Part shown: in pieces, positions 1 through 33,811 of the stretch
How the letters are laid out: every line of letters begins with the position of its first letter
Position numbering within the stretch: the stretch's first letter is position 1
DNA from: Sedimentisphaerales bacterium
Lineage (GTDB): Bacteria; Planctomycetota; Phycisphaerae; Sedimentisphaerales; Anaerobacaceae
Direction of reading: 5' to 3'
DNA length: 34,166 nt
Assembly (NCBI GenBank): GCA_028277585.1
Contig: JANQFY010000234.1
Location: forward strand, 1-34,166
Translations under genes and position numbers: made by a program
Notes under the pieces: model-generated
The model's input: only the letters and a program-made list of their open reading frames with translations
Told to the model about the DNA's origin: nothing
Databases searched by the model: none

Positions 1-2292
1 GGTGGCGCTAACTTCGAAGAGGTAGCCCTGAAGGAAACGCGTCAGCCCCATCGCCCCGGCCAAGCCGATGGCCGTACCAACAGCAGACAATATCAATCCA
101 TGTCTGAGGATCATGGCTCGAATGCTGTGCTGCCCGGCGCCCAACGCCATACGGATGCCGATCTCGTTGGTGCGCTGAGCGGCCGAGTACGATACCACAC
201 CGTATATGCCCACGATAATCAGAATCATCGCGATACCCGTGAAGAGCGTCAAAAAGGTCGTGGTGAAACGCTCCTGATGGATCGTTCCGTTCATCTTGGC
301 CTTGAACGTACCGGCGCCATAGAGCGGCATGGTCGGATCGATGTCCTTGAGAATCGCTCTGATATCGCTTACGACAGCAAGGGACTCGGCCTGGGTCCGA
401 ACGACGAACTGCATATGGGCGTTGGGGAGAACGGATCGGAACGGAAGGAATATATGATTCGACTTCTCGGCCGGGATGTGGATGTTCTTGACACTGCCCT
501 GCACCATGTCGTTGACAATCCCGATGACGCGGTAGTTCTTCCCACAGAAGAGAATGTCCCTGCCGATCGGATCCTCGTCGGACCAAAACAGACGGGCGAG
601 CCCCTCATTGATCAAAACGACCTCGCTCTTCTCATGCTCGTCCAGAGCCATGTCTCGGCCCCTGAGAATGGGAATCCCCAACGTTCTGAAGTAGTCAGGG
701 CTGACATTGTGGAAGACCGTCACAACCTGATCCCTGTTCATGGGATTGGGGCGACCAGGAACGGTGACCGGTCCTGAATTGGCATAGGGAGAACTCAACA
801 TGGACGAATCGGAAGAAGCCGAAACAACATTGGGCAGACTGCGTATGCGACCGAGCAAGTCCTGACTGAACTGCCAGCGCTGACTCTCGTTGCCCGACTT
901 CGTCACGCTGAACGTCAGGAGGTTGTCGGGGTCAAAGCCGGGATCCACCGCCGAGAGTTGCCCAAGGCTTCGGATCATGAGTCCCGCCCCGATCGACAGG
1001 ATCAGGGCCAGTGCAATCTGAGCGGTGACGATCGCATTCGAAAAGCGCCTGTGTCCGAGCGACGTGTTATGACGCTCTCCGAGCGACTCGGCGGCTCGGG
1101 CCTTCATGAAGAACCAGAACGGAGCGATCCCCAGAACCAACCCCACCAGCAGGGACACTCCCACACCAAATAGCAGGCTGCCCAGGTCGACCTGTATGCC
1201 ATGGGTGCGCGGCACCAGGTCGGCGATCACCACCTTGAGGAGACTGCAACTCCACCAGGCCAGGAGCAGGCCGACGGCGCCGCCGATCATGGACAAGACC
1301 AGACTCTCGGTCAGAAACTGGCCCAGGAGACGTCCGCCCCCGGCCCCTAGCGCCTGACGGATAGCCATTTCCTTGTTCCTGGAAGCCGCCCGCGACAGGC
1401 ACAGGTTGGCGACATTGGCGCAGGCGATCAGGAGGATGAACCCGACGACCCCGGCCAACAGCCACAAGGTCGGGCGAACGCGTCCAACGACGGTGTCACT
1501 GAGCGTACTGATGAGAACTTCGACATCATTGCGGGCGCCGGCCCCATGGTGGCTTTCGGTCAGGTTGTCTTCGAACAAGTTGATTAGCTGTTTCGCCGTC
1601 GCCAGGGTCATGCCGTCCTGGAGCCGTCCAAGCACGCGATAGGCGCACATGCCTCGATGCGTTCGCATGTCGCCCTGGGGGCGCAGAGCTGTCCACGCCT
1701 CCGCATCGGAGAGTTCGTGGGGATACTGGAACCCATCGGGCAGGACCCCCACGACGGTGTAGAGCAGCGACTTGTGCAGTTGGACCTGTCTGCCGAGGAT
1801 ATCCGGGTCTCCTCCGAAGCGCCTCTTCCAGCAACCGTAGCTCAGCACGACGACGTGTTCGGCCCCGGGTTGCTCATCCCGCTCCAGGATCGGTCGGCCC
1901 AGGTGCGCAGACACATCGAGCACCGCGAAGAAACTGGCTGTCACCGAGGCGCCGTCGATGCGAGTCGCTCCCTGTTCTCCGATCCAATCGAATTCCGCCG
2001 GCGTATAAGCTGAGAGTTCATCGAATACCGGATTCGACGCCCTCCAATCCAGATAGTCGGGATACGAGAAGAGTGTCGTGCGTCCCGTGTCGTTGAACTT
2101 CTGGCTCAGAACGAGCAATTGGTCCGGCTGATCGAAAGGTAACGGCTTGAGCAGCACGGCATGGATGACACTGAACAACGCAATGTTAGCCCCGATGCCA
2201 ATCGCCAACGTCAACACCGCCATGGCGGTGAAACCCGGTTTCTTGAGTAGCAGCCGTATTCCGTACCTCATGTTCTGTGCTAGAACGCTCAT
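1..2292 (-). CDS. ADOP/MacB-like duplicated ABC permease 12 (3' end outside window)
   Basis: The frame is open from the ATG at 2292 to the left edge with no stop: 764 residues are visible. I checked every codon of this frame. The start is preceded by AGGAAG/AGGGA and gives MSVLAQNMRYGIRLLLKKPGF, in line with the paralogues. The first coupling motif is EMAIRQALGA (308-317), the second begins at 707 (RTNEIGIRMALGA). All eleven other copies have exactly 97 residues from that point to the end, so about 39 residues should be missing and the full length should be near 803. The visible sequence stops inside the (S/T)DP-type segment (YLFEVSAT), so it is not a PHDP copy. It is intact, not truncated by mutation. 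Confidence 0.93.
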   Translation of the reverse strand, partial: MSVLAQNMRYGIRLLLKKPGFTAMAVLTLAIGIGANIALFSVIHAVLLKPLPFDQPDQLLVLSQKFNDTGRTTLFSYPDYLDWRASNPVFDELSAYTPAEFDWIGEQGATRIDGASVTASFFAVLDVSAHLGRPILERDEQPGAEHVVVLSYGCWKRRFGGDPDILGRQVQLHKSLLYTVVGVLPDGFQYPHELSDAEAWTALRPQGDMRTHRGMCAYRVLGRLQDGMTLATAKQLINLFEDNLTESHHGAGARNDVEVLISTLSDTVVGRVRPTLWLLAGVVGFILLIACANVANLCLSRAASRNKEMAIRQALGAGGGRLLGQFLTESLVLSMIGGAVGLLLAWWSCSLLKVVIADLVPRTHGIQVDLGSLLFGVGVSLLVGLVLGIAPFWFFMKARAAESLGERHNTSLGHRRFSNAIVTAQIALALILSIGAGLMIRSLGQLSAVDPGFDPDNLLTFSVTKSGNESQRWQFSQDLLGRIRSLPNVVSASSDSSMLSSPYANSGPVTVPGRPNPMNRDQVVTVFHNVSPDYFRTLGIPILRGRDMALDEHEKSEVVLINEGLARLFWSDEDPIGRDILFCGKNYRVIGIVNDMVQGSVKNIHIPAEKSNHIFLPFRSVLPNAHMQFVVRTQAESLAVVSDIRAILKDIDPTMPLYGAGTFKAKMNGTIHQERFTTTFLTLFTGIAMILIIVGIYGVVSYSAAQRTNEIGIRMALGAGQHSIRAMILRHGLILSAVGTAIGLAGAMGLTRFLQGYLFEVSAT

Positions 2293-2379
2293 TGTCAGTC
2301 CCTACTTCCTGAATTCTACTTCACTGTTTTCGAGTCGTCACCGCGTATGGTTGGGCTCGTTCGCGAAAAGTAGCCCATA

Positions 2380-4884
2380 TTACTCATAGCGCAGCGCCTC
2401 CATCGGGTCGGTCTTGGCCGCTCTGTACGCCGGGATCGCGCAGGCGAACAGGGCGGTTGCGCACAGTACCGCGGCTGTCACAAGGTACGTGATGGCGTCA
2501 GCGCTGCTAATGGCATAGAGAAGATGCCTCAAGTAGTACCCGACAGCCAGGGCCGCGAGGAGTCCCAGCCCCAGGCCGCCGGCCGTCAGGACGATGCCCT
2601 GCTTCAGAACCATCACGAGAATGTTGGACTCGGTGGCGCCCAAGGCAAGGCGGATTCCGATCTCCCCGGTGCGCTGGGCCGTTCCGGCGGCGATGAGCCC
2701 GTAGAGACCGACGACAGCCAGGAACAGAGCCAGGACACCCTGAATTCCAACGATCGTCGCGCCGACACGCAGGGGCATGAGTCCCAAGGCACTGCCCGCG
2801 ATCTGCTGCTCCATGGTACGCACATTGTAGATGGGCATGTCAGGTTCGATCCCGCGGATCATTTGTTCGACCGCAGGGATGTAGCTCTTGGGATCGCCGG
2901 CCGTACGGAGGGCCAGCGTGATGTTGCCCACGAATCGTTGACGCAGCGGGATGAAAGCATACGGTTGGCTCAGATCGGTCATGCTGTAGTAGCAACCGTT
3001 GGGCACGACGCCGATGACTTGACGCAACTGACCGTCAATGAGCAAACGTCGGTTCAAGGCATCGCCCTCGGGCCATAGACGCTCAGCCATCGCCTGATTG
3101 ATGATCGCTACCTGAGCCGTCTGGTTGTTGTCGTTGATGGTGAAGTCACGGCCGGCCAGAATGGGAATCTCGAAGGTCTCCATGAAGGTTTCGGCCACTT
3201 TGTGACAAGGGGCCGTGAGCAACTCCTGCCCCGGTTCGGGCGCTTGCCCCTCGGGCAAGTACCCGGTGAGCCAGGTCGCCTCATCGCCATAGGGAGCGTG
3301 TTCAACCAGGGTGGCTGCCTGCACACCGGGCAAGGTCCGGGCCTCATCCAGGACCTTCTGATGAAATTGCACTGCGCTGCCAAACCCCTTGCGCACCACG
3401 TAACGGTGGGTGCCAAGGTTGTACGAAGCAAGCAACAGATTCTTCTCGTTGAAGCCGAGATCAACCGCCGCCAGACGCAGCAAACTCCGCCCGGCCAGCC
3501 CGGCACAAACCAGGACAAGAAAGGACAGGGCTATCTGGACACTGACCAGAGTCTTTCGCAAGGCGCAGCGTTGAGTGGCGCCCCGTGAACTGCCTTCCTT
3601 CAGAAGCGGGACGAATTGCAGGCCGAGGTGGCGCAGGATCGGCAGGACGCCGGCCAAGAGGGCCACCAGCAGAGCCATGCCAAAAACGTAGCCTGTCTGA
3701 CGCCAATCGTGGCGGTAGTCGAACGCCGGCGTTGTGTCGCTGATCGCCAGTAAGACTCGATCCAGGGCCATACGCAACCAGGGGGTAATCAGCAAGCCGA
3801 GCAGAGCAGCGCCCAGAGCCAGCAGGACACTCTCCATCAGAAGCTGCCCCATCAGGTGACGGCGTCCGGCGCCCAGGGCCCGGCGCACGGCAACCTCCCG
3901 TTCACGCTCGTGCATGCGCGTGTAGAGCAGGTTGGTCACATTGACGGCGCCAATGCCCAAGACCAGAAGGGACAGCCCCATCAAGACCGTGACAATGAGT
4001 GAGGTACGTTGGGCCAGGGCCGGGGTGGGCCGGCACTCTCGTTCACGCAGGACCTCAATACGACCCGGGACGTGCTCTTCCGGATACTGCTGCAACAGAC
4101 GTGCGAAAAGCACGTCAGCCGCGGCCTGGGCCCGGCGGGGAGAAACACGGGCCTGCAAACGTCCGAACATCCGGAAGGCGGCGCTGCCACGCTGCGACAA
4201 CTGCCGCCCGTAAAAGGGAGTCAACTGCGGCATCATGCTGATCGGGGCGAACCCGCTGAGGTCTCTTGACCATTCCATGCCATGAAAGCCGGGCGGGCAC
4301 ACTCCCACCACCGTCATGGGTAGACAACAGATGTCTATGGTCTGTCCGATGATCTCAGGATCACTGTTGCAGCGGCGCCGCCAGTAGTCATGCGTCAGAA
4401 TCACAATCGGATCCCGGCCGGGTGACTCGCCTTCTCCCGGCAAAAGGAATCGTCCCAGCGCAGGTTTGAGCGCCAAGACCTCGAAGTAATTACTGCTGAC
4501 CATCTGCACCCAGGAACGCTCTTGCGGCCCATCCGCCCGACCGATATGGACCGGGACACGGCGATAGGCGGCCAACCCGGAGAAGGCGTCTGAAAGGGCC
4601 GCGCCCTCTTCTCCGGAGTCCTCCAGACCCAAGCGAAAATTATGTACGTCCGGATACGAGAAGCTCAGACGCGTCCTGACCTGCGGACTGCGTTGAAATA
4701 TCCGCACCAGTTCCTCCGGACGCTCGGCTACCAAGGGGCGCAAATACAAATCGCTCACATAGGAGAAGACCAGCGCGTTGACTGTCAGCCCCAAGACCAA
4801 GGTCAATACCGCCGCCGCGGTGAAACCGGGTCGCCGGCGGAGTTGCCGTATGGCGTACTTAATGTCCTTGAGTAAAACACTCAC
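2380..4884 (-). CDS. ADOP/MacB-like duplicated ABC permease 11
   Basis: At 834 residues this is the longest copy and the most diverged. The GTG start (4884) has a perfect AGGAGG nine bases upstream. The first coupling motif is EVAVRRALGA (330-339). The helix before it lacks the Cys found in all other copies (IGAVNVTNLLY). The second motif begins at 738 (RTGEIGIRLALGA). In the last block the otherwise invariant Asp-Pro is Asp-Ala (SSADAIT), and the end reads [17 protein letters not shown]. The first periplasmic domain has a CC pair near 186-187 and another Cys near 196, which could form a disulfide. An 87-base gap leads to permease 12. Confidence 0.93.
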   Translation of the reverse strand: MSVLLKDIKYAIRQLRRRPGFTAAAVLTLVLGLTVNALVFSYVSDLYLRPLVAERPEELVRIFQRSPQVRTRLSFSYPDVHNFRLGLEDSGEEGAALSDAFSGLAAYRRVPVHIGRADGPQERSWVQMVSSNYFEVLALKPALGRFLLPGEGESPGRDPIVILTHDYWRRRCNSDPEIIGQTIDICCLPMTVVGVCPPGFHGMEWSRDLSGFAPISMMPQLTPFYGRQLSQRGSAAFRMFGRLQARVSPRRAQAAADVLFARLLQQYPEEHVPGRIEVLRERECRPTPALAQRTSLIVTVLMGLSLLVLGIGAVNVTNLLYTRMHEREREVAVRRALGAGRRHLMGQLLMESVLLALGAALLGLLITPWLRMALDRVLLAISDTTPAFDYRHDWRQTGYVFGMALLVALLAGVLPILRHLGLQFVPLLKEGSSRGATQRCALRKTLVSVQIALSFLVLVCAGLAGRSLLRLAAVDLGFNEKNLLLASYNLGTHRYVVRKGFGSAVQFHQKVLDEARTLPGVQAATLVEHAPYGDEATWLTGYLPEGQAPEPGQELLTAPCHKVAETFMETFEIPILAGRDFTINDNNQTAQVAIINQAMAERLWPEGDALNRRLLIDGQLRQVIGVVPNGCYYSMTDLSQPYAFIPLRQRFVGNITLALRTAGDPKSYIPAVEQMIRGIEPDMPIYNVRTMEQQIAGSALGLMPLRVGATIVGIQGVLALFLAVVGLYGLIAAGTAQRTGEIGIRLALGATESNILVMVLKQGIVLTAGGLGLGLLAALAVGYYLRHLLYAISSADAITYLVTAAVLCATALFACAIPAYRAAKTDPMEALRYE

Positions 4885-5057: not shown

Positions 5058-7493
5058 TCACTCATAGCGCAGCGCCTCCATCGGATCGATCCGGGCGGCT
5101 CGTCGCGCGGGGACCCAGGCTGCCAGTGCCGCGACGGTGAACAGCAAGACGGCCGCCCCGATGACGGTGGCGGGATCGTGAGGTTGGATACCGAAGAGGT
5201 AGCCGCGTACAAGTCGTACGATAGCGAACACCAATGGCAATCCGAGGGTGATTCCGACACCCGCCATGCACAAGGCACTGCGCAGAATCGGCCAGGCGAC
5301 GGTCCCCGGTGTGGCGCCCAGCGCCATGCGAATGCCAATCTCATTGGTACGGCGCGCCACACTGTGGGCCATCAGGCCGTAGAGACCGATGCAGGACTGC
5401 AGAACCGCCAGCAATGCCAGCGACGAGGCGAGATAGGCGAACGACCGTTCTTGCAGCGTGTTCTCCGCGATCCGGGTCTTGAGGGTCTTCGCGCCCGACA
5501 GCGCGACGCCGGGATCGATCGCGGCCAGGGTCTTACGCACCGCCGGGATCAAGCCTTGGGGGTCCACGGCGCTGCGCACCGCGAAATAGGCGCCCCGGCC
5601 CGAGGGCAGGAAGACGGTCGGCTCGAACGGAGCTTTGAGGTCGTAATACTTGCTGTCTCCACAGACACCCACGATTCGGTAGCTCTTCCGGCGAATCTTC
5701 AGGATTCTATCGATCGGATTCTCATCGGGAAAAGCGGACTGCGCCAGGGTCCGATTGACGATCGCCACGCTCTGCGAATCCTCCATGTCCCTCGCCTGAA
5801 ACGTCCGTCCGCTCAGCAGGGGAATCTCCATGGTCTCCAGGAACGTCCGGCCCACATTCTGGATGAGGAGGTTCAGGCGCCTTGAACGATTTCCAGGCAA
5901 GGAGATCGTCGTACTGCTACTGCCTCGGGTCAGCAGAGCGATGCCGGAGTATGTCACGTCCTGCACGCCGGGCAGAGCTCCAAGGGCGGTGCAGAATTCG
6001 GCTTCGCGTCCTTTCGTATCGGCGCGGAACACCAGGAGATTCTCGCTGTTGAAGCCTGTTTCAACGCGTTGGATATTGATCAGCGTCCGCGCGAAAAGGC
6101 CGGCGCCGACCAGCAGCAGCAATGAGAGTCCGACCTGGGTCGAGATGAGCAGGCGGCCCAATCGCAGGCGCGATGCGCCGAGCGTTGTTCTGTTCTTGAG
6201 ATGGCTCGCCGGATTGCTGCGCACCGCGCGCCAGGCCGGAAGCAACCCGAACAGGACGGTTGTCACCACCAGCACGGCCAGGACGAAACCGTACACTCGG
6301 GTATCACTCCGCAGAGTGAGAGCCGTGCCCGGCGACCAGAGAATGCGCGCTAAGACGGGCTTTCCCCAGACGGCCAGGAGGAGCCCCCCCAGGGCGCCCG
6401 CGATGGACAAGAGGATGCTCTCGGTCAGCAACTGCCGCACCAGGCGCCCACGTCCGGCCCCCAGCGCCGCGCGGACGGCGAATTCGTGCCGGCGCATCAC
6501 GCCCCGGGTCAGCAGCAGGCCCGCCAGATTGACGCAGGTCACCAGCAGGACAGTCGCCATCAGTCCGAACAGCAGGTACAGAGGTTTGGCCATCCGGCCC
6601 GTGCGTGGCGCCAGAACGCCGCTGAGACCTCCACTGCCATCGGTCAAGACAATGCGAAGATTCCTCTCGGACGTGTCGACGCCGGCTTCCTCAAGCGTCC
6701 GAGTGAACAGCGTGTCCAGGGAACTGGCCGCCTGGAACTCATCGACCCCTGGCTCGAGACGGGCCATGACCTGGACCCACCAGAAGTCAGTAGATTCCAG
6801 AGGACAGATGCCCTCGATCTGAGGTTGCAGAGCCAGCGGGACATAGACATCAAACCGACGGCCCCTCTCGATCCCCAGAAAACCTCTCGGGAGCACGCCG
6901 ATCACCGTAGCGCTGACCTGGTTCACAGCGATCGTCTGCCCGATGACGTTGGGATCGCGGCCGTAGTACTCTTGCCAGGCATGGTACGAGAGGACGGCCC
7001 CCGGCGCCACGTCGGGCCGATCATGCTCCGCCGCAATCGCCTGGCCCAGAATAGGCGCCAGACCCAATCCCCGGAAGAAGTTGCCTGAGACCATCATACC
7101 GTCGACCGCACGGGCCTGGCCGCCAATGAGGACCGAAGGGGGGTCGAACGAATTGAACCCCATGAAGCCGAAGACCTCCGCGACACCGGCGCCGCGATCG
7201 CGAAACTCGCGGTAGATCGGATACGTGAACGTATTCGATATATTCTCGCCGCCGGGCGGAGAACCGATCCGGCCGTACACGCGAGCCTGGTAATCGCCCA
7301 TCCAGTTGACGCCATGAAGCTCATGCGGGTTTCGTACGGGCAGCCTCTGCATCACCACCGAGTTCAGGAGACCGAACACGGTCGTATTGGCCCCGATGCC
7401 CAGCGCGAGCATGACAATCGCCACGCCGCAAAACAAAGGCTGCTTCACCAACTGCCGCACTCCGAAGCGTACGTCCTGAAGTAACGTGTTCAT
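5058..7493 (-). CDS. ADOP/MacB-like duplicated ABC permease 10
   Basis: This 811-residue PHDP-subgroup copy starts at an ATG with AGGAG six bases upstream. The first coupling motif EFAVRAALGA is at 337-346, preceded by [12 protein letters not shown]. The second begins at 715 (RTNEIGIRMALGA), and the signature YLFGIQPHDP follows. The first periplasmic domain shares several features with permease 1 (VNW near 62-64, a YP-x-Y-R-x-F stretch near 91-97, and a DGSGGL segment near 285-290), so these two are probably the closest pair although nine genes, eight of them permeases, lie between them. It ends [18 protein letters not shown] 173-base gap follows; I see no strong promoter in it. Confidence 0.93.
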   Translation of the reverse strand: MNTLLQDVRFGVRQLVKQPLFCGVAIVMLALGIGANTTVFGLLNSVVMQRLPVRNPHELHGVNWMGDYQARVYGRIGSPPGGENISNTFTYPIYREFRDRGAGVAEVFGFMGFNSFDPPSVLIGGQARAVDGMMVSGNFFRGLGLAPILGQAIAAEHDRPDVAPGAVLSYHAWQEYYGRDPNVIGQTIAVNQVSATVIGVLPRGFLGIERGRRFDVYVPLALQPQIEGICPLESTDFWWVQVMARLEPGVDEFQAASSLDTLFTRTLEEAGVDTSERNLRIVLTDGSGGLSGVLAPRTGRMAKPLYLLFGLMATVLLVTCVNLAGLLLTRGVMRRHEFAVRAALGAGRGRLVRQLLTESILLSIAGALGGLLLAVWGKPVLARILWSPGTALTLRSDTRVYGFVLAVLVVTTVLFGLLPAWRAVRSNPASHLKNRTTLGASRLRLGRLLISTQVGLSLLLLVGAGLFARTLINIQRVETGFNSENLLVFRADTKGREAEFCTALGALPGVQDVTYSGIALLTRGSSSTTISLPGNRSRRLNLLIQNVGRTFLETMEIPLLSGRTFQARDMEDSQSVAIVNRTLAQSAFPDENPIDRILKIRRKSYRIVGVCGDSKYYDLKAPFEPTVFLPSGRGAYFAVRSAVDPQGLIPAVRKTLAAIDPGVALSGAKTLKTRIAENTLQERSFAYLASSLALLAVLQSCIGLYGLMAHSVARRTNEIGIRMALGATPGTVAWPILRSALCMAGVGITLGLPLVFAIVRLVRGYLFGIQPHDPATVIGAAVLLFTVAALAAWVPARRAARIDPMEALRYE

Positions 7494-12452: not shown

Positions 12453-12643
12453 TTCAAGTACCCTCCATGGAATCGGTCTGGATTGCGAAACTGATGAACA
12501 AGGAACTGAGAATGTCGAGGTAGAGGACCATCGAACAGACGGCAGCCAACGTCTTCTTTCTGCGGTTCCTCGTCCGGTATACGATGTTCCAATCTGAGCC
12601 TCTTACTATTCGCGTGATCTGTACGATCTTTGGTTCTATTCAT
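12449..12643 (-). other. Possible 64-codon gap-filling reading frame between permeases 7 and 8
   Basis: This frame fills the 183-base gap. Its ATG overlaps the last codons of permease 7 (TATGAATAG), nine bases after a GGAGG inside the conserved MEAL codons. Its TGA overlaps the permease 8 GTG start by four bases (GTGA). The product would be a charged, Arg/Asp/His-rich protein with no membrane helix and no family I recognise. It could be a small gene, a device for coupled translation, or chance. I found no convincing promoter or terminator in this gap. Confidence 0.25.
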
Positions 12644-17656: not shown

Positions 17657-17763
17657 TGAATCTGTCCTTTCATAGCAGACTGAGATTGCCGGAAATCGCC
17701 GCCCCACCTTGTCACCACATGTTCTCGATCTCTTGGTTTATACAACATCTCTATATTACTCAT
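17653..17763 (-). other. Possible 36-codon gap-filling reading frame between permeases 5 and 6
   Basis: The ATG lies inside the last codons of permease 5 (TATGAGTAA), and the TGA overlaps the GTG start of permease 6 by four bases (GTGA). The frame therefore spans the whole 99-base gap. The predicted peptide is polar and resembles nothing I recognise. It could couple translation of the two permeases, or be chance; a TGA at this spot is built in whenever a start codon is followed by AGT. Confidence 0.2.
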
Positions 17764-25920: not shown

Positions 25921-25973
25921 GTCTGCCTCTCAATCCTCGTTAGTCCAGAACCAATCATCAATCGCGATGCGTT
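25921..25973 (-). repeat. 53-base spacer, copy 2 (between permease 2 and the ATPase gene)
   Basis: This gap has the same length as the spacer at 28449-28501 and matches it at 35 of 53 aligned positions without gaps. It contains a possible 15-codon frame (25930-25977) that begins with a GTG overlapping the permease 2 stop as GTGA. Its predicted product shares the pattern KR-x-x-IDD with the one in copy 1. An AGAGG ribosome-binding site for the ATPase gene lies at its downstream end. Confidence 0.55.
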
Positions 25974-28448
25974 TCACTCGTGACGTAAGGCCTCCATCGG
26001 ATCGATCTTAGCTGCCCGATGGGCGGGAAGAGCGCTGGCCAGAATGGCGAGTAGCAGCAGGCTGACCGTCGCTACCAGCAGTGTGGCCGGGTCGTGCGGC
26101 TCGACCCCGAACAATTGACTGCGGATGAGGCGAGTCGCCACCAAGGCGCCCGCCCATCCGATGGTGACGCCGACGATGGCCAGCTTCAGACCGCTGCGGA
26201 TCAACAACCATCCGACCGCATCATGTGTCGCGCCGAAAGCCATGCGGATACCCATCTCCCGAGTGCGTCGCACCACTGCCTGCGCCAGCAGACCATAGAT
26301 GCCAACAGCAGCCAGGGCTACGCCCACGCCGGTGAGCAACGACAGATACAGCGTGTACCGCCGACGGCTCTCGGTCTTGCCGTACAACTCGTGGTTCATC
26401 GGAACCACGCTGACATGCTCCATGTTGGGCTCGGCGTCCCGAACTATGTCTTGTAGAGGACGCACCAAGGCAAGGGCATCGCCACCGGACCGAACATAGA
26501 AAGTCGGGGACATCTGCCAGGCATAGTGATCCCGTGCAGGACGATAGAACGCAGGCCTGACCTGCTGATCGAAGGAACGCTGCTTGATGTCGCCCACGAT
26601 GCCGACCACCTGCCAGATCAGCTCCCGTTCTCTGCCCCGCCGTACTTTGCGGAAAGTTCTACCCAGCGCGTCGCCATCCGGCCAGAAGACACGAGCAAGG
26701 GTCTCATTGACGACGACAGTGTTTCGCTCGCGATCGCTCTCGTCCAGGAACCGTCCACGCAATAGGGGCGTGCCCATGGCGGCGAAGGTATTCTGGTCCC
26801 CCAGGCCGCAGCCTCTCTCGACAACGTCGACACTGTCCTGTGGATCTTTGACGTAATACTCGCGCCATCCCGACCTTGCGGTTGCGACGCCCACCGACTC
26901 CACGCCGGGCAGAGCGAGAAAGGCTTCGTGCAGGCGCCGGGTCAATTCCGCTCTTCGGGTCCCGAACTCGTCGAAGTACGCTCGATATGGTGGGCTCACG
27001 GACACACGGACGAGCCCTTCGATCTGGTACCCCACGTCGACGCGGAGCAGGCGCACAACGCTCTGGAGCATCAACCCGGCACTGGCCAGCAGAGTGAATG
27101 CCAGCGCTACCTCGGATACCACCAGGCCGCGCATCAGCCACCGTCCGGAGACGCCCTGCGTGGTTGAGGCGCCGGTCTGTTTGAGCACGGCGTTCAGTTT
27201 GAGCACGGCGTTCAGTCGAGGACGCGAGGCATACCAAGCGGGAATGAGACCGAACGTGACCCCCGTAGCCAGAGCTACGGCCATGGAACCACCGAAGACG
27301 CCCCAATTCAACTCGAAAGCGCGTAGGCGGGTACCGGCGAGAAACGCGTCTAACACATGCAGACCCCACCTCGTGACGACGAGCCCACACAAACCTCCCA
27401 GCAACGCCAGGAGCAGGCTTTCGACGAGTAATAGACGCAGGAGACACCCGCGTTCGGCCCCCAGGGCGCCGCGCACCGCGAATTCGTGTTGTCGCGCTTC
27501 GGCACGAGCCACCAAGAGAGCGGCGACATTGGCACAGGCGATGAGCCATACCATGCCAACGACCGCGAACAATGTCCAGAGTGAACGGCGCACCTTCGCG
27601 TCCACGAGATCGTCGGTGACCTTGCTAAGGCGGAGGCTCCACCCCTGATTCGCCTTCGGATCGTCGTGCACCTGGCGGCTATGAATCAGATCGAGCATGG
27701 CCTGGACACGCTGAACCTTGACACCGTCCGCCAAACGAAGTGTGACCCAATAGTCGCGATCCCGGTAGGCCCGGCCTTCAGGATCATTGGCCCGAGAGAC
27801 GACGACTGGATCGTCCCCCGCAATCCAATAAGCGGTGTCCGCCCTTGGATACCGGAAATGGGGCGGCATGACGCCGACGACGCGGAACCGTTGGAGTGGC
27901 GCATCCTCTGTACCGTCGCCAAAGTCGACCAGGCTGTCGAGGCCCCCCCGGTCTGCTCCGAACTTGCTGCTCCAAAACCTGTGACTCAGGACGATGGCTG
28001 GCTCGGCGTCGGAGCCACCGCTGTAAGAGCTGAATCCCCGGCCCAGCGCCGGTTGCACACCCCAGGTCGAGAAAAAGTTGGGTGACACCCGGCAGCCGGA
28101 GATCGCTTCGGGGAAAGTGCCTTCGCGGTACTTCATGCTCACGTACGAGTGTATGGCGAGGTCCGCAAACAACTCCGAATGATCGCGCAGTCCGGCAACC
28201 GTCACGGGATTCACACCCAACTCCAGCTTGTCCATCCCAGGCACGTAGGAACCAAAGGAGGTAGTCTTCATCAGGCGGTCGGGCTCCGGGACCGGCAAAG
28301 GATCAAGGATCGTCGCCTGAACGACGCTGCTGATCGCCGAGGTCGCGCCAATGGCGACCGCCAGGGTCAATACAACCACAGCAGTGACACCGGCCGATCT
28401 GCACAGTACGCGGATACTGTAGCGAATGTCTTGCCAAAGCATGCTCAT
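25974..28448 (-). CDS. ADOP/MacB-like duplicated ABC permease 2
   Basis: This 824-residue duplicated permease starts at an ATG 53 bases after permease 1. The first coupling motif EFAVRGALGA is at 322-331 and the second starts at 728 (RTREMGIRMAFGA). It carries the PHDP signature of its subgroup. The first membrane helix departs from the usual [12 protein letters not shown] pattern (AVAIGATSAISS). In the linker after the first FtsX half, LNAVLK occurs twice in tandem (412-423), encoded by a perfect 18-base repeat. The C-terminus reads [17 protein letters not shown], the only copy ending RHE. The periplasmic domains are strongly diverged from the other copies, suggesting a different ligand. It is the last permease before the ATPase gene. 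Confidence 0.92.
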   Translation of the reverse strand: MSMLWQDIRYSIRVLCRSAGVTAVVVLTLAVAIGATSAISSVVQATILDPLPVPEPDRLMKTTSFGSYVPGMDKLELGVNPVTVAGLRDHSELFADLAIHSYVSMKYREGTFPEAISGCRVSPNFFSTWGVQPALGRGFSSYSGGSDAEPAIVLSHRFWSSKFGADRGGLDSLVDFGDGTEDAPLQRFRVVGVMPPHFRYPRADTAYWIAGDDPVVVSRANDPEGRAYRDRDYWVTLRLADGVKVQRVQAMLDLIHSRQVHDDPKANQGWSLRLSKVTDDLVDAKVRRSLWTLFAVVGMVWLIACANVAALLVARAEARQHEFAVRGALGAERGCLLRLLLVESLLLALLGGLCGLVVTRWGLHVLDAFLAGTRLRAFELNWGVFGGSMAVALATGVTFGLIPAWYASRPRLNAVLKLNAVLKQTGASTTQGVSGRWLMRGLVVSEVALAFTLLASAGLMLQSVVRLLRVDVGYQIEGLVRVSVSPPYRAYFDEFGTRRAELTRRLHEAFLALPGVESVGVATARSGWREYYVKDPQDSVDVVERGCGLGDQNTFAAMGTPLLRGRFLDESDRERNTVVVNETLARVFWPDGDALGRTFRKVRRGRERELIWQVVGIVGDIKQRSFDQQVRPAFYRPARDHYAWQMSPTFYVRSGGDALALVRPLQDIVRDAEPNMEHVSVVPMNHELYGKTESRRRYTLYLSLLTGVGVALAAVGIYGLLAQAVVRRTREMGIRMAFGATHDAVGWLLIRSGLKLAIVGVTIGWAGALVATRLIRSQLFGVEPHDPATLLVATVSLLLLAILASALPAHRAAKIDPMEALRHE
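27180..27215 (-). repeat. Perfect 18-base tandem duplication inside permease 2
   Basis: Two identical 18-base units (27180-27197 and 27198-27215) encode LNAVLK-LNAVLK. The other permeases have one corresponding segment here. The duplication is in frame and lies in the cytoplasmic linker before the fifth membrane helix. Perfect identity suggests a recent slippage event, or an assembly artefact. Confidence 0.85.
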
Positions 28449-28501
28449 GTTCGGATCTCAATCATCAACAATCACTAATCTATCATCAATCCCCGTCCGT
28501 T
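28449..28501 (-). repeat. 53-base spacer, copy 1 (homologous to spacer before the ATPase gene)
   Basis: The gap after permease 1 is exactly 53 bases. Aligned without gaps to the 53-base gap after permease 2 (25921-25973), it matches at 35 of 53 positions by my hand count, including the identical blocks GATTGATGAT and GATTGAGA. It also contains a possible 15-codon reading frame (28458-28505) whose ATG overlaps the permease 1 stop as ATGA. It may be a relic of gene duplication or a kept regulatory element. Confidence 0.55.
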
Positions 28502-30988
28502 TCATTCGCAGCGCAGGGCCTCCATCGGATCGATCCGCACGGCTCGGCGCGCGGGAATCCACGCGGCCAGGGCGGCAACCCCCAGGACCAGAAGAACCGT
28601 GGCGGCGAGGGTCATCGGGTCGTGCGGCCTGATGCCAAACAGGACGCTGCGCAGGACCTGCATCAGCGCCAGCGCGATCGGGATACCGACCAGCAAGCCA
28701 AAGCCCGCCATTCGAAGGGCGCTGCGCAGAACGGGCCAGGCGATATCACGAGGTCGAGCGCCGAGGGCCATACGCACCCCGATTTCGCCCGTCCGACGCG
28801 TCACCATGAAGGCCAGCAGGCCGTAGAGCCCGACGCAAGACAGGAGAATGCCCAACAAGGCCAGGCCGCCGCACAGATAGGTGAAGACCCGCTCCGGCGC
28901 AATAGCAGCTCTGAAGAGTTGCACCTGCGTGGCGATCTGTTCCAGCGGGACGGTACGATCCAAATCCCCCACGATCTGGCGGACGGTCGGAACGAGCGCT
29001 AGCGGATCACCTGCCGTGCGAACCTCAAAGACCATTGCCTTCGGATTGGCCTGTCTGTGTGAGAAGTACAGGGTCGGTTCGACATCGGTCTGGACCCGGT
29101 TGTACTTGGCGTTCTTGGACAGGCCGACAATCGTGTAGTTCCGCTCGCCCATGCGAATCGATTGGCCCAGGGGATCTTCATTGCCGAAGTACTCGCGCAC
29201 CAGCGCTTCGTTGGCAATGACCACGGCGGGCTGTGATGCGGTGTCCGTTCGCTCAAAGGTGCGACCGCGCAACAGAGGGATGTCCATGGTCTGGAAGAAG
29301 GTCTCGCTGACCCTGAGTATATCGGCCATAGGATGCCGACCGTTCTGCTGCGCGCGTCCGGGAACGGAGAACGCGTTGGCGGCGCGGCGTCCCCCCAACA
29401 GGCTGTCGCTGGACAGGGAGACACTTCGGACGCCGGGAAGACCCGCGATGCGTGCTTCGACCTCGTCATAGAAGCGAACCGAGCCCGGCCCGTCGTATCC
29501 GGCCTGGCCAGGATTCAAACCGAAGACCAGGATCTTGTCGGTGCGGAAGCCGAGATCGGTCTGATACAGGTTGATCAGCGTTTGCAGCAGCAAACCCGTG
29601 GCCACCAGAAGTAGAACCGACAAACTCACCTGGGCGGCCACCAAGACCTTGCCCAGACGCAAGCCGGGGACACCGAGTGTTCTCTGGCTCTTGAGCCCTG
29701 AGCACAAATTCGCGCGCGTGACACGCAGCGCCGGTAACAGACCGAAGAAGAGGCATGTCACCAACGCAGAGATCAAGGTGAACAACAGCACGCGCAGGTC
29801 GACGCTCACATCGAGATTGAAACTGTCCAGGCTGGAGGGGAGCAGGCTCAGAACGGCCGCTTTGATCCAGATCGCGGTGACCAGTCCAAGTCCGGCTCCC
29901 ACAAGCGACAGGACCAGGCTCTCAGTGAGCAACTGACGAACGAGGCGTCTGCGTCCGGCCCCCATGGCCGCCCGCACGGTCAGTTCCTGCCGGCGCGCCG
30001 CCCCGCGGGCCAGCAGCAGCCCCGCCAGATTGGCACAGGCGATCATCAAGACCAGACCCACCGCGCCCATCAGGATGACAATTCCCACCGCCATTTGCCT
30101 TCGGATACCGAGCAGTCCTCGGCTGCCGTCAACGAGATGAATCTGAGGATCGTCCATCCGCGTTCCCTGGCCCGGCGCCGACAGGGTCTGGAGGAAGAGT
30201 CCTTCCATGGCGGTACGGACCTGGGTCTCATCGGCTTTGGGTTCCAGACGCACCATGATAGTGGCCCACCAGTGATTCCGGGCGTCCAGAGACTTCCCGG
30301 GAGCCAGCGAGGGTCGGGCGGACATCGGGACATAGATCTGGGCCCTACTGCCCAGTTGCGGGCTGCAATACGCACGGGGCAGAACCCCGACAATGGTGAA
30401 CTGATGCTTGTTGATGATCGTCATCTGGCCGATGACCGCAGGATCCAGATCGTACTGCCTTTCCCACCAGTGGTGCGTGATCACCGCCACGGGCTCGGCC
30501 TGCGATGACTCATCGCCCGGCCTGAGGGTGCGACCGATCAGCGCCCGGGCGCCGTATCCGTCGAAAAAATCGCCCGAAACCACCATGGCATTCGTGGTGG
30601 TGGCGCCTCTGGGACCGACGACGGTTAAGCCATGCAACTCGCTGAAGGCGAATACATCGGAACAACCCTCCACGCGTTCCTTGAAGTCCCGATAGACTGG
30701 ATAGGGGAAGGAGCCCGAGACCCTGGCCCCGGGACCGCCGCGCGTGGCATCGGCCGGACCGCCGGTGAAGTGGGAGAGTCGCGCATTGAAGCCGCTCCAA
30801 TTGACGATGCGCAATTCATGCGGGTTCGGCACGGGCAACGACCGCATCCAAATCGCATTGAGAAGACTGAAGATCGCGGTATTGACCCCAATCCCCAGCG
30901 CCAGTGACACCAGCGCCACCGCCGTAAACCCAGGGCTCTTGCGCAGTTGGCGGAGAGCGTATCTTATGTCCTGCCAAATGTTTGTCAT
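28502..30988 (-). CDS. ADOP/MacB-like duplicated ABC permease 1
   Basis: This 828-residue inner-membrane permease is made of two FtsX/MacB halves. The start is the ATG at 30988 with GGAG eight bases upstream; it aligns with the DIRYALRQLRKSPG opening of its paralogues. A GTG at 31051 would add 21 residues not seen in them. Half 1 has a helix at about 20-45, a periplasmic domain to about 290, and helices with the coupling motif ELTVRAAMGA at 335-344. Half 2 has its own periplasmic domain and the coupling motif from residue 732 ([13 protein letters not shown]). It ends MEALRCE, with Cys where most copies have Tyr. It belongs to the PHDP subgroup (permeases 1, 2, 8, 10) and most resembles permease 10 in its first periplasmic domain. 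As the first permease after the adaptor it may be the most highly expressed. Substrate unknown. Confidence 0.93.
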   Translation of the reverse strand: MTNIWQDIRYALRQLRKSPGFTAVALVSLALGIGVNTAIFSLLNAIWMRSLPVPNPHELRIVNWSGFNARLSHFTGGPADATRGGPGARVSGSFPYPVYRDFKERVEGCSDVFAFSELHGLTVVGPRGATTTNAMVVSGDFFDGYGARALIGRTLRPGDESSQAEPVAVITHHWWERQYDLDPAVIGQMTIINKHQFTIVGVLPRAYCSPQLGSRAQIYVPMSARPSLAPGKSLDARNHWWATIMVRLEPKADETQVRTAMEGLFLQTLSAPGQGTRMDDPQIHLVDGSRGLLGIRRQMAVGIVILMGAVGLVLMIACANLAGLLLARGAARRQELTVRAAMGAGRRRLVRQLLTESLVLSLVGAGLGLVTAIWIKAAVLSLLPSSLDSFNLDVSVDLRVLLFTLISALVTCLFFGLLPALRVTRANLCSGLKSQRTLGVPGLRLGKVLVAAQVSLSVLLLVATGLLLQTLINLYQTDLGFRTDKILVFGLNPGQAGYDGPGSVRFYDEVEARIAGLPGVRSVSLSSDSLLGGRRAANAFSVPGRAQQNGRHPMADILRVSETFFQTMDIPLLRGRTFERTDTASQPAVVIANEALVREYFGNEDPLGQSIRMGERNYTIVGLSKNAKYNRVQTDVEPTLYFSHRQANPKAMVFEVRTAGDPLALVPTVRQIVGDLDRTVPLEQIATQVQLFRAAIAPERVFTYLCGGLALLGILLSCVGLYGLLAFMVTRRTGEIGVRMALGARPRDIAWPVLRSALRMAGFGLLVGIPIALALMQVLRSVLFGIRPHDPMTLAATVLLVLGVAALAAWIPARRAVRIDPMEALRCE

Positions 30989-31028
30989 CGATCGGACTCC
31001 AGATCCCAGACAGCTACGCTTTCCCATT

Positions 31029-31052
31029 CGTGCCGGCTCCGCCTCCGGCACG
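31029..31052 (-). other. Inverted repeat (8-bp stem) between adaptor and permease 1
   Basis: CGTGCCGG at 31029-31036 and CCGGCACG at 31045-31052 form an uninterrupted 8-bp GC-rich stem with an 8-base loop, inside the 82-base gap after the adaptor stop. No T-run follows on the transcribed strand, so it does not look like a standard intrinsic terminator. It could be an mRNA-stability or processing hairpin that sets adaptor and permease levels apart, or a partial attenuator. The hairpin is seen directly; its function is inferred. Confidence 0.45.
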
Positions 31053-31070
31053 GATGGTTGGCTGTGACTC

Positions 31071-32333
31071 CTATTTCAGGCGGATGCGGTCGACCGCATC
31101 CCATTGCGAAACATCGGAAAGGACGATCTGATCGCCCACCTCCAAACCATTGAGGACTTCAATGGTGGTGACGGAACTGCGTCCGAACTCGACCGCCACG
31201 CGGATGGCGTGCCTGCCTTCGTCGACCACCTTGAACAATCGTGCGGACCCTTCGGCCGAAGCGGAAACGGGCCGCCCGACATACAGTACGTCGTCCAGCC
31301 GCTCAATTTCTATCGTGCCGACCACAGATAAATCGGGTCGCGCTCCTTTGGGCAGCGCCCCTTCCAGCGAGACATCGACCGTCACGTTGCCTTCGACGAC
31401 CGTCGGATCGATCCGCGAGACCTTGCCCGGAACGATGCCGTGATAGGTATCCACCTCCACGGGAAGCTCTTTCCGCAGGTCGCGGGCCTGCGATTCGGGG
31501 ACCCGCAACTGGGCTTTGAGCTTCTCCGGATTGGTGATTTTGGCCAGAATCGTGCCAGTCGCTACGGATTGGCCCGGCTCGATTTGCTTTTCTACCTGAG
31601 CCAGGACGCCGCGTTTGCCGGCCCGAACGTGGAGCGACTCGATCTGGCGCTCCTTGAGTTCATACTGCATCCGAGCGCGATTCACCGCCGCCTCCAACTC
31701 GGCTAACTGGGCGGGCATCGTCTGATCGCGAAACATCTCATAACGGCGTAGATCGATGTCCAGACGCATCTCCATTTGCTCGACCCGGGACTGAGAGAGT
31801 TTCAGGTTCAGTTCGGAGATCAGACCATCATCGAACTGGGTTTTATCCACCTCCGCCTGCAATGTGGCATTCTCATAGTCGGCCTGCATTTGAGCCCGCG
31901 TCGCTTCCATGCCGAGCAACTGGTCCTGCAAGCGGGCCTTCTGAGCAGTCAACTGGGCCTGAGCCGAATCCAGGCTGGATTGCGCCTCGAGCAGCTCCAA
32001 CTGAAGATCGGGATTACTCAACTCCAGGATGATCGTGTTGGGCTCGACGATGGCGCCGGGCAAAACGGGGATCCCGGTCACACGCCCCGCCACATCAGCC
32101 GGGATGAGCAGGATGTCCTCGGAGACGAGCGTACCGGTGCCGCGAACCTGGCGCAGCATCGAGCCCCGCTCCACAGTGCCGAACCAGAGGGTCCGCTTGT
32201 CCGCGGACGGCGCCGCCGGCTTGAGCCGCGAGAGCCCCAGGCTGACACCGGCGACCACGATGAGCCCCGTCGCGAGGACCAGGCCGCGCCGCAGGGCTTT
32301 GAGACGTTTCGAGCTTTTTCTTGGAATATCCAT
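31071..32333 (-). CDS. HlyD/MacA-type periplasmic adaptor (membrane fusion protein)
   Basis: This 420-residue protein would link an inner-membrane ABC permease to an outer-membrane channel. A basic N-terminus is followed by one membrane anchor (about 17-35). A split lipoyl domain follows (first half about 70-105, second half about 235-268 with GVLAQVEKQIEPGQSV). Between the halves is a Gln/Leu/Glu-rich coiled-coil hairpin (about 108-233). A beta-barrel (about 270-350) and a membrane-proximal domain complete the usual MacA order. The ATG at 32333 is forced: an in-frame TAG lies at 32340-32342 and the next candidate starts fall inside the membrane helix. It is the first gene after the sigma-54 promoter and may have almost no untranslated leader. 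Permease 1 follows after 82 bases. Confidence 0.93.
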   Translation of the reverse strand: MDIPRKSSKRLKALRRGLVLATGLIVVAGVSLGLSRLKPAAPSADKRTLWFGTVERGSMLRQVRGTGTLVSEDILLIPADVAGRVTGIPVLPGAIVEPNTIILELSNPDLQLELLEAQSSLDSAQAQLTAQKARLQDQLLGMEATRAQMQADYENATLQAEVDKTQFDDGLISELNLKLSQSRVEQMEMRLDIDLRRYEMFRDQTMPAQLAELEAAVNRARMQYELKERQIESLHVRAGKRGVLAQVEKQIEPGQSVATGTILAKITNPEKLKAQLRVPESQARDLRKELPVEVDTYHGIVPGKVSRIDPTVVEGNVTVDVSLEGALPKGARPDLSVVGTIEIERLDDVLYVGRPVSASAEGSARLFKVVDEGRHAIRVAVEFGRSSVTTIEVLNGLEVGDQIVLSDVSQWDAVDRIRLK

Positions 32334-32346
32334 ACGAGACTACCTT

Positions 32347-32363
32347 AGCAACTACCGTGCCAG
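32347..32363 (-). promoter_or_regulatory. Sigma-54 (RpoN) promoter of the adaptor-permease operon
   Basis: Read on the minus strand, the site is CTGGCACGGTAGTTGCT. It matches every fixed position of the sigma-54 consensus YTGGCACGrNNNTTGCW, with correct spacing between the GG (-24) and GC (-12) elements. It lies in the gap between the kinase gene and the adaptor gene, and an NtrC-type activator is encoded just upstream. Placing the C of TTGC at -12 puts the transcription start near 32336, about three bases before the adaptor ATG at 32333. I saw no comparable match in the other gaps. The promoter has not been shown experimentally. Confidence 0.85.
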
Positions 32364-32488
32364 TGGAGGGCACCGCCCAAGGGAGGCGTTTCTCGGCGTG
32401 AATCTCGGCTTTGAGACAAGCGGCGCGCTCCATTCTGGAATCCTGCGCCCGAAACCGCACGCGCCGATCACAGTCCGTAACACCGGCC

Positions 32489-33811
32489 TCATGAATCGCG
32501 CGTCAGGGGAAGTGTCAGGCAGGCCTGGCATCCGGGGGCGTCCTCGCGGTTCTCCAGCGTGAGAGAACCGCCGTGAACCTCGGCAATCTGGCGACTCAGC
32601 ACAAGGCCGATCCCGGAACCGGCCGGTTTGGTGGTGTAGAACGGCACGAAGACGTGCCCCGCCTCGGCTAGGCCTGGTCCATCATCTTCAATCCATATCC
32701 GCAGACGCTCCTCATCCGTCCGCCAGTGAATCTGAACGCCTCCGCCGTCTGAGCCCTCGAGACTGGCCTCCACCGCGTTGGCCAGCACGTTGATCAGCAA
32801 CTGCTCCAGTTGGTCCTGATCAGCTTGAACCACCACATCGCCGCCCTGGGCAATCTGCACGGGCAGGCGGTTTTCGAGATCTACGACCCGATGGATCAGG
32901 TCTCTGACACGGACCTCCACCAGCCGCGGCGGCGGCAAATGCGTCAGCTTGGAGTAGGACTCGATGAACCGATGGAGGGCTTCCGAACGGTCGGCAATGA
33001 TCGCCAGCCCATTGCTTAGATCCTCTTCCCAATCGCCCGGTCGAGGGTGTCGGCTGCTCAACGTTCGCAAACTCTCGGCCACCGACTGGATCGGCGCCAG
33101 AGAATTGCTGATTTCGTGGCGCAGAATCTGGACGAGGCGCTTCCAGGCCAGCCGTTCCTCTTCGTGCAGCGTTCGGGTCAGGTCGGAGAGGAATACCAGT
33201 CGCCGCAGTACGCCCCCCTCTCGATACGTCCCGCGGCGCAGTTGCCAGCGTCCCAGCCCGCCGGGAAAAGCCAGATCGACCACCCGCGGGGTCGGCCCCT
33301 CCAGACACTCGGCCAATCCCAGTTCCGAGGCGTGGCGACCGTTGAGTTGCCGATCGCTGCGGCCGAGCAGCCGCCGGGCGCTGTCGTTGAACAGTCTCAG
33401 TCGATCGTCGCTGTCGAAGCCAAACAGCGCTAAGTCAATCTCCGCCATGACTTTGCGCAACAGAGCGGTTGCTTCCAACGCCCCGAGTCGCTGCTCGCGG
33501 AGCAGTTCCGTCAGCGCGTTGACCTCCCAGATCACCTCCCCCAACGCATCGTCACTACAAGCCCCCCGCACCTGCATCGAGTAGTCCCCTTCGCGCAGCG
33601 CCCCCAGCATATTGGACAGCGTCCGCAGGGGGAATACCACCCGGGCCTTCAGCGCCGCGGCGAATCCCAGCCAGAGCACCAGAAGCACCAAGGTCAGGGT
33701 CACACAGGTGTGCAGAGTGAAATCGGAAGTCCATAGAAACGCCAGCGCAACGGCAGAGCCGACGAAACCGGTCATGAAGGATAGAACGAGTATGCGGCGC
33801 TCGTACTTCAT
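32489..33811 (-). CDS. NtrY-like sensor histidine kinase (HAMP-PAS-HisKA-HATPase)
   Basis: This 440-residue protein has two membrane helices (about 7-27 and 33-53) joined by a loop of only a few residues, then HAMP (about 54-105), a PAS domain (about 110-215), a phospho-acceptor helix with H232 in RHEISNSLAP, and a catalytic domain. The catalytic domain has N341/N345 in NVLANAVEAS, the G1 box DDGPGL at 376-381, and the FVPFYTTKPAGSGIGL region at 388-403. The kinase looks complete. The ATG is preceded by GAGGAG and lies 12 bases after the regulator stop, so the two genes are co-transcribed. With almost no periplasmic loop, it probably senses a signal in the membrane, in the cytoplasm (PAS), or through another membrane protein. 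NtrY-like is a structural statement; nothing here indicates nitrogen control. Confidence 0.93.
   Translation of the reverse strand: MKYERRILVLSFMTGFVGSAVALAFLWTSDFTLHTCVTLTLVLLVLWLGFAAALKARVVFPLRTLSNMLGALREGDYSMQVRGACSDDALGEVIWEVNALTELLREQRLGALEATALLRKVMAEIDLALFGFDSDDRLRLFNDSARRLLGRSDRQLNGRHASELGLAECLEGPTPRVVDLAFPGGLGRWQLRRGTYREGGVLRRLVFLSDLTRTLHEEERLAWKRLVQILRHEISNSLAPIQSVAESLRTLSSRHPRPGDWEEDLSNGLAIIADRSEALHRFIESYSKLTHLPPPRLVEVRVRDLIHRVVDLENRLPVQIAQGGDVVVQADQDQLEQLLINVLANAVEASLEGSDGGGVQIHWRTDEERLRIWIEDDGPGLAEAGHVFVPFYTTKPAGSGIGLVLSRQIAEVHGGSLTLENREDAPGCQACLTLPLTRDS

Follow-up and report, generated by a model that had tools for sequence, protein, structure and literature searches.

The window analysed here is a 34,166-nucleotide stretch of a Sedimentisphaerales bacterium that makes up an entire contig (C386) of a 7.17 Mb genome in 532 contigs (80% complete); both of its ends are therefore artificial. 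On its minus strand lie, in order, a regulator fragment, a kinase, a periplasmic adaptor, permeases p1 and p2 of the ADOP family (TIGR03434), the ATP-binding cassette (ABC) ATPase ATP1 and permeases p3 to p12. Comparison across genomes indicates that these genes probably belong to a modular MacAB-TolC-like exporter, in which many interchangeable double permeases of the YbbP type would share one motor and one adaptor. Genomic evidence speaks for such a shared motor, namely co-occurrence, unequal copy numbers, changing permease partners and a core operon that lacks a permease. A modular exporter had been proposed in an earlier account of the window made without database searches (the sequence-only reading); recurrence of the genes and the genomics of motor sharing speak for it, but its parts list omitted a second conserved ATPase family, ATP2, and a TolC-like outer-membrane factor, which by gene content both belong to such systems. 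Its claim of a single ATPase is true of the window and not of the system, because contig C131 of the same genome carries ATP2.

Co-occurrence was scored in a planctomycete set of 119 genomes (the host genome and 118 relatives) and in a sample of 149 Acidobacteriota genomes, using the best 6-24 candidates per genome. ADOPs were called at E <= 1e-120 in the planctomycete set (all 19 over the curated family cut-off) and at E <= 1e-150 in Acidobacteriota (50 of 55 over the cut-off); ATP1 was called at E <= 1e-75 or > 330 bits, ATP2 at E <= 1e-75 and the adaptor at E <= 5e-145, and weaker matches were excluded. ATP1 scoring > 330 bits was present in 53 of 55 ADOP-positive Acidobacteriota genomes vs 0 of 94 ADOP-negative ones. 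The 19 ADOP-positive genomes of the planctomycete set had ATP1 in 15, the adaptor in 16 and ATP2 in 13 cases, and at these thresholds none of the three was found in the 100 ADOP-negative genomes (Fisher p of 9e-16 for planctomycetes and 2e-38 for Acidobacteriota, descriptive values, as the genomes are related). The 16 adaptor orthologues in the 119 genomes were 56-100% identical, with an E-value gap from 5e-145 to 2.5e-14. In the stretches from 15 relatives, many of them short, ATP1 accompanied the adaptor in 11, an ADOP sequence was present in 15, and the kinase and/or the regulator in 10. The adaptor alone as a query of genome contigs gave no match; its alignment as the query gave 186 relatives, of which the best 80 were kept as loci. 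These best 80 were titled Planctomycetota, Acidobacteriota, Verrucomicrobiota and, in one case, Gemmatimonadota; a few titles gave an unusual class or none. ATP1 lay within 1.5 kb in 61 of the 79 loci with an adaptor open reading frame (ORF), and the 52 loci with at least 6 kb downstream contained ATP1 in 49 and an ADOP of > 300 amino acids (aa) in 46 cases. Furthermore, 24 of 24 adaptor loci picked from the 80 were in genomes with ADOPs; at eleven of these loci no full ADOP adjoined the adaptor. The sequence-only reading had named a lack of ATPase conservation beside such arrays as grounds for refuting its sharing idea; this conservation was observed, and the idea survived the check.

The motor and the permeases differed greatly in copy number. 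A single ATP1 of > 330 bits was found in 51 of 53 acidobacterial genomes, and one ATP1 match in 13 of 15 genomes of the planctomycete set; a second ATP1-like piece in G003 (78% over 134 residues) was left out of these counts. ADOP matches numbered at least six in 30 of 55 acidobacterial genomes and one in 10 of 55, and several genomes gave 20-26 among the best 26 scored per genome. The host genome had 21 ADOP matches over the TIGR03434 cut-off (12 within the window), one ATP1 with several further ATPases at 38-49% identity, and a single copy of the adaptor (1 match).

ATP1 and its neighbouring permease also differed in conservation. ATP1 had a mean identity of 80% vs 33% for the next downstream permease in 55 pairs of 11 genomes, a set that includes fragments (two pairs reach 50%, one of them over 66 aa). 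When G071 was left out, 45 pairs aligned over at least 400 aa, and one of these reached 50% identity. The permease adjacent to ATP1 in G002 has its orthologue (75%) in p1 of the window, which is two genes from ATP1, and orthologues at other array positions in G003 and G069. On the 80% vs 33% identities, the idea that ATP1 belongs to p3 alone was rejected. In addition, among ten window permeases the two coupling loops (conservation 0.55 and 0.47) and the C-tail (0.78) were more conserved than the two periplasmic domains (0.25 and 0.26), which is consistent with motor sharing but no more than that.

Twenty stretches from four Acidobacteriota genomes (G224, G263, G279 and G127; 296,020 bases, no N run), picked for long contigs and top-scoring ADOPs and not at random, included one core locus per genome. 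The core read adaptor-ATP1-ADOP-ATP2-TolC-like-regulator-kinase in G224 and G279 and adaptor-ATP1-ADOP-ADOP-ATP2-regulator-kinase in G127. The G263 core read adaptor-ATP1-ATP2-TolC-like-regulator-kinase, with no ADOP segment in 15 kb, and six further stretches of this genome held 11 ADOP ORFs of > 700 aa. By the searches used, 0 of the 16 stretches with dispersed ADOPs (21 ORFs of > 700 aa) had an ABC ATPase, and none had an adaptor or a TolC-like gene; these dispersed permeases lie up to megabases from the core locus. A motor operon without a permease, together with permeases without a motor, is the most direct genomic sign of sharing.

Several observations weigh against a shared motor. The 330-bit line for ATP1 was placed at the gap seen in the data, and the Fisher p-values overstate independence because the genomes are related. 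The ADOP-positive Acidobacteriota G143 and G158 have ATP1 relatives of only 277-280 bits, ATP1-like ATPases of 269-298 bits (54-60% identity), the highest scores in that group, occur in 7 of 94 ADOP-negative genomes, and a single ADOP match, as in 10 of 55 Acidobacteriota, fits a plain ATPase-permease pair equally. Other MacB/LolD-like ATPases (up to ~50% identical) could drive some ADOPs in trans, and a motor restricted to a part of the ADOPs would fit the co-occurrence as well. Conservation is only 0.25 in the cytoplasmic linker that follows the first permease half, so the parts facing the nucleotide-binding domain are unevenly conserved. ATP1 was not found in the ADOP-bearing G029, and no ATP1, ATP2 or adaptor was found by these searches in G005 (97% complete), G031 and G058, which have ADOPs; gaps in these metagenome-assembled genomes (MAGs) or service by other ATPases would therefore account for them. 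At one G005 locus (L163), four ADOPs follow the regulator and the kinase, and a TolC-like gene comes last. Lastly, a trans arrangement read from G041 and G003 (L057, L053, L147-L158), with ADOP arrays megabases from the adaptor and ATP1, is void, as is the reading of G041 as a core that lacks ADOPs: in both single-contig records, stretches of 100 Ns link separate contigs at intervals of a few kb, so their gene order is uninformative. Their ADOP, ATP1 and adaptor pieces end at N joins, and in G041 an ADOP start directly follows ATP1.

ATP1 and ATP2 might instead each drive one or a few cognate ADOPs, the rest using LolD/MacB-type ATPases from genes located elsewhere or being unpowered. The 4-bp overlap of ATP1 with p3 is a sign of translational coupling and fits such pairing, as do the one ADOP between ATP1 and ATP2 in G224 and G279, the compact one adaptor-one ATPase-one ADOP units of Rahnella and Gloeobacter, the several other ATPases of the host genome and the G005 row without ATP1 or ATP2. 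We nevertheless consider cognate pairing unlikely: the permease adjacent to ATP1 varies between genomes, one of the 45 long alignments reaching 50%, and has orthologues elsewhere in other arrays; the G263 operon has both ATPases and no permease; and ATP1 tracks the presence of ADOPs yet is mostly single copy. It is also conceivable that few ADOPs export and that most are ligand sensors signalling via ATP1 to the kinase, in the style of BceAB-BceS. The periplasmic domains are highly divergent, 31 of 44 kinase sequences have two transmembrane (TM) helices with 5-17 residues between them, and the account of BceAB in PMC5985334 gives a precedent in its signalling to BceS. One kinase for many permeases, the adaptor and TolC-like genes that point to export, and the ten TM helices described there for BceB against eight here make a sensor array highly improbable.

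Tandem duplication could also have left an array without modular function, many of its copies idle or broken. One window permease, p7, is frameshifted, short ADOP ORFs occur in several relatives (many of those in G003 and G041 are cut off by an N join), and 7 of the 12 window permeases have no 50%-identity match over 300 aa in the relatives fetched. Against this, 10 of the 12 ORFs are full length and their coupling motifs are conserved at ~30% mutual identity, which suggests long selection, and PMC10564751 reports that 80 of 102 orphan permeases were transcriptionally active in an acidobacterial MAG. We therefore give decay very little credence.

Under the shared-motor reading, the locus would be a regulated tripartite type VII (MacB/LolCDE/FtsEX/YbbAP) ABC exporter built as a kit. 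A pair of ATP1, or ATP1 with ATP2 where the latter is present, would engage one ADOP after another, docking each time on its two coupling loops; we infer two ATPases per ADOP because YbbAP has two ATPase chains on one permease. The adaptor would connect the engaged permease to the TolC-like channel, and ATP-driven mechanotransmission would push substrate caught by the divergent periplasmic domains out via the adaptor and the channel. Different permeases would supply different ligand ranges, with motor, adaptor, channel and control constant. In a stronger form, about which we are doubtful, one cell-wide asymmetric ATP1/ATP2 motor would energise tens of ADOPs in cis and in trans, like an exporting counterpart of energy-coupling factor (ECF) transporters, and the kinase would read the load. 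The ATP1/ATP2 pair would then fit the unequal halves of every ADOP, and a single adaptor and a single channel would complete the system. ATP1 and ATP2 are adjacent in the permease-free operon of G263, in favour of this form; against it, ATP2 was not found in G001, G003 and G059, which contain ATP1 in incomplete or fragmented assemblies, and it lay within 10 kb of the adaptor at few Opitutaceae loci.

ATP1 of the window (25210-25920, minus strand) matches ABC_tran, falls in the ATP1 clade and has intact ABC motifs; its 4-bp overlap is with p3. The host ATP2 lies on contig C131 (L004:543-1238), in the order ADOP C-terminus-ATP2-ADOP-TolC-like gene. In a quick tree with some long branches, ATP1 and ATP2 fell into two distinct clades, with 68 rows and a support of 98 for ATP1 and 25 rows and a support of 100 for ATP2; Planctomycetota, Acidobacteriota and Verrucomicrobiota were represented in both. 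Seven Opitutaceae ATPases that scored like ATP2 formed a separate clade of their own and were rejected as ATP2. Walker A, LSGGQ and Walker B were kept in both families, except in one truncated ATP1 row. The D-loop Asp was His in 25 of 25 ATP2 vs 0 of 67 ATP1 sequences, and in all 25 ATP2 sequences the Arg after LSGGQQQ was Leu and the residue after the switch His was Ser or Asn. Four further acidobacterial ATP2 genes had the same three changes, at the D-loop, after the signature and after the switch. A heterodimer with one altered site might show such residue changes.

All twelve window permeases passed the TIGR03434 curated cut-off of 622.3 bits, eleven as single ORFs (711-972 bits) and p7 via its C-terminal piece. 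Eleven window paralogues compared with one another were 28-43% identical, so this is old diversity and not recent amplification. The twelve diverged permeases in one direction that the sequence-only reading had described are hence confirmed, all on the minus strand: p1 (28502-31051, 857.6 bits), p2 (25974-28448, 711.3 bits), p3 (22787-25213, 863.5 bits), p4 (20354-22777, 971.7 bits), p5 (17756-20185, 900.6 bits), p6 (15170-17707, 842.2 bits), p7 in two frameshifted pieces (N-terminal, 14491-15126, start at ~15126, 217.7 bits over profile positions 2-198; C-terminal, 12636-14594, 656.2 bits over positions 210-803), p8 (9990-12452, 791.9 bits), p9 (7509-9980, 835.3 bits), p10 (5058-7493, 780.3 bits), p11 (2380-4884, 723 bits) and p12 (1-2292, 764 aa, cut by the contig end, 789.4 bits). 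Contigs C131, C475 and C217 likely continue this array, the contiguity of C131 with the window being presumed.

Pfam placed FtsX and MacB_PCD each in two stretches of p1, p2 and p3, an internal duplication. Eight TM helices were predicted in 9 of 10 full-length permeases, and p11 gave nine peaks. An AlphaFold2 (AF2) model of p3 (pLDDT 89.1, pTM 0.85) matched E. coli YbbP first and MacB next in Foldseek, with moderate TM-scores of at most 0.46 on the query. On these predictions, each ADOP is a fused pair of MacB-like halves, with eight TM helices, two periplasmic core domains and two coupling loops, and it includes no ATPase of its own. The reading frame of p7 shifts at ~14491-14594, where sequencing error and decay are indistinguishable. 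An 87-nt direct repeat, 72% identical (25916-26002 and 28444-28530), spans the gene ends and gaps flanking p2; this is what cassette insertion or duplication would leave, and such events are a possible route of permease shuffling.

The adaptor (31071-32333, minus strand) matches HlyD_3 and is a MacA-like periplasmic protein of the membrane fusion type. Its AF2 model (pLDDT 88.8, pTM 0.58) has two hairpin helices of ~60 residues and predicts a MacA-type fold; the top PDB match was 9qgy_G, the MacA of MacAB-TolC, and 5nik_D, 4dk0 and 3fpp were also matched. Its closest named relatives are from Phycisphaerae and Sedimentisphaerales MAGs, and it is also present in other genomes of the host genus. 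The host is thus a planctomycete, and the permease family is called 'acidobacterial' for historical reasons alone. The TolC-like gene beside ADOPs on C131 matched PF02321, with TIGR01844 below cut-off, and ADOP runs also had TolC-like genes next to them or as their last member in G001, G002, G003, G004, G005, G031, G036, G041, G069 and G071.

The operon appears to be under two-component and sigma-54 control. Upstream of the adaptor, the histidine kinase (32489-33811, minus strand; HATPase_c, with orthologues in relatives) has two TM helices and a very short extracytoplasmic loop by hydropathy; the remaining 13 of the 44 sequences gave one detected TM helix. The short spacing leaves no periplasmic sensor domain where this can be judged, and with almost no extracytoplasmic domain the kinase may read the state of the transporters instead of a ligand, a speculative idea. 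The NtrC-type sigma-54 response regulator runs off the contig, and only its last 113 aa (33824-34165, minus strand; Pfam AAA_lid_14 and HTH_8, an AAA lid and a Fis helix-turn-helix) are inside the window; a full-length relative (L044) has a receiver, Sigma54_activat and the Fis helix-turn-helix. The adaptor and the kinase/sigma-54 regulator pair noted in the sequence-only reading thus have matching domains and recur with ADOPs across phyla.

A perfect -24/-12 sigma-54 site, TGGCACGGTAGTTGCT (32347-32362, minus strand), is located 13 bp before the adaptor start; it is the only perfect consensus match in the window, and its position is kept in relatives. Sites scoring at least 18 of 20.5 at 8-35 bp occurred in 44 of 80 adaptor loci vs 0.41% of 8000 random anchors, and the four acidobacterial cores had sites scoring 18-18.5 at 15-19 bp before the adaptor. 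An NtrC-type regulator and a putative -24/-12 promoter thus coincide at the operon. Adaptor loci in which an ADOP precedes the adaptor were often without a site. The idea of a sigma-54 promoter for each permease found no support, as 0 of 140 ADOP starts had a site of at least 19 within 80 bp, in a scan where ORF starts may lie too far upstream and only 3 of 15 adaptor sites were recovered. The predicted promoter (32333-32362) would start transcription ~3 nt before the adaptor ATG, making the transcript leaderless or nearly so. Most planctomycete loci that have a strong site place it 11-13 bp from the adaptor; for other phyla the distance is usually 14-29 bp.

The system shares features with several known transporters. 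It resembles TIGR03434 ADOPs in passing their cut-off, in the internal duplication and in the many paralogues per genome. It differs in reaching beyond Acidobacteria and in having a dedicated ATPase, adaptor and outer-membrane gene alongside. We take 'orphan' in the ADOP name to mean that no ATPase is associated or no motor known, and the restriction to Acidobacteria to be part of the family history. Here relatives were titled Phycisphaerae, Sedimentisphaerales and Opitutaceae, with Rahnella and Gloeobacter in addition, and an ATPase was associated, as given above for ATP1 within 1.5 kb of the adaptor. Like MacAB-TolC, the system has a MacA-fold adaptor, permease halves that match MacB and a TolC-like gene; unlike it, the ATPase is a separate protein, the permease is a fused double unit and there are many permeases per motor. 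The MacB equivalog NF007826, an ATPase-permease fusion, was matched far below its cut-off of 966 bits (permeases at most 140, ATPase 228).

E. coli YbbAP (9GE6/9GE7) provides the best Foldseek match of p3 in YbbP, and PMC12646458 describes it as a 2:1 complex, in which two separate ATPase chains sit on a single pseudosymmetric, fused permease. YbbP has 10 TM helices against the 8 predicted here, and YbbAP works with TesA and has no adaptor or TolC; the likeness is at the fold level alone, as the YbbP equivalog NF041854 gave 18 bits for p12 only (cut-off 999). The darobactin exporter DarBCD is similar in that DarD is the best NCBIfam match of both ATPases, the adaptor matches DarC weakly and a radical SAM gene lies in the row of the Gloeobacter relative. 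Identity with DarBCD was rejected (ATP1 vs DarD 259.2 of 375 bits, adaptor vs DarC 54.1 of 450, DarB at most 34.4 of 700), and no precursor peptide gene was noticed in the window. LolCDE was likewise rejected (LolCE at most 48.2 of 362 bits, LolD 224.5 of 307.8).

Group II ECF importers share their energising module among S-components, and their membrane part is unrelated to type VII. Their likeness to the present system would be one of principle, one energising module with many membrane partners; ECF transporters import, and the system here is presumed to export. According to PMC7755397 and PMC4525288, one energising module (EcfAA'T) with two different ATPases serves many competing membrane proteins. 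The system here is likely a tripartite exporter of type VII whose energising module is shared in the manner of ECF transporters.

Units from the plasmids pKM05 of Rahnella and pGMOR1 of Gloeobacter have the same parts: an adaptor (31% and 45% identity), an ATP1-like ATPase (64% and 67%), one ADOP over the cut-off and a two-component system. They came from a plasmid tblastn with ATP1 of which the best matches alone were used, out of at least 5000. In the Rahnella unit the regulator is of the sigma-54 type, and a sigma-54-like site is found 33 bp ahead of the adaptor. Both differ from the window in having one permease each, with no array seen in the stretch shown. With an ATP1-like ATPase and one ADOP as a natural pair, the arrays look as though a simpler exporter had been expanded. 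The statement of the sequence-only reading that ATPases are rarely near ADOPs is accordingly no general rule.

To our knowledge, no shared-motor design has been described before in the type VII ABC superfamily, and we found no description of a shared motor for these permeases in the open-access literature. A Dyadobacter description uses the ADOP name for 28 and 33 copies by RAST, and an acidobacterial MAG had 102 'acidobacterial orphan permeases', 80 of them transcriptionally active, whose transport role was merely suggested (PMC10564751); the passages on ADOPs in these two sources name no motor. If ATP1 and this adaptor are the common motor, one gene knockout would test the function of the whole ADOP family, and the role of ADOP permeases in three phyla would become approachable. 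The shared-motor reading may also bear on a verrucomicrobial symbiont for which the authors of PMC8636102 describe 14 MacB homologues and found no MacA.

The window gave no match in Rfam and tRNA scans. In relatives, genes for PF05635 23S rRNA intervening-sequence proteins lie between the adaptor and ATP1 (L044:8315-8689, L046:8299-8718, L055:4023-4388, L062:1618-1977, and L049:3531-3920 by sequence likeness); they sit between two protein genes, and the short-repeat runs flanking them look complementary by eye. Very large proteins are encoded in or beside ADOP arrays of relatives, at L047:3-4202 (HZS_alpha/cytochrome), L045:14404-18702 and L049:8842-12477; the domains of the latter two are an M1 peptidase with LVIVD and a 3-keto-disaccharide hydrolase, and a lamin-tail domain. 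They could be cargo, neighbours or insertions alike. In Gloeobacter pGMOR1 (L197:2751-12000), the row consists of the adaptor, a 252-bp hypothetical gene, a radical SAM gene, the ATP1-like ATPase, the ADOP, a cache-domain protein and a response regulator. It resembles a cluster for a ribosomally synthesized and post-translationally modified peptide with an ADOP exporter, a hint at peptide substrates.

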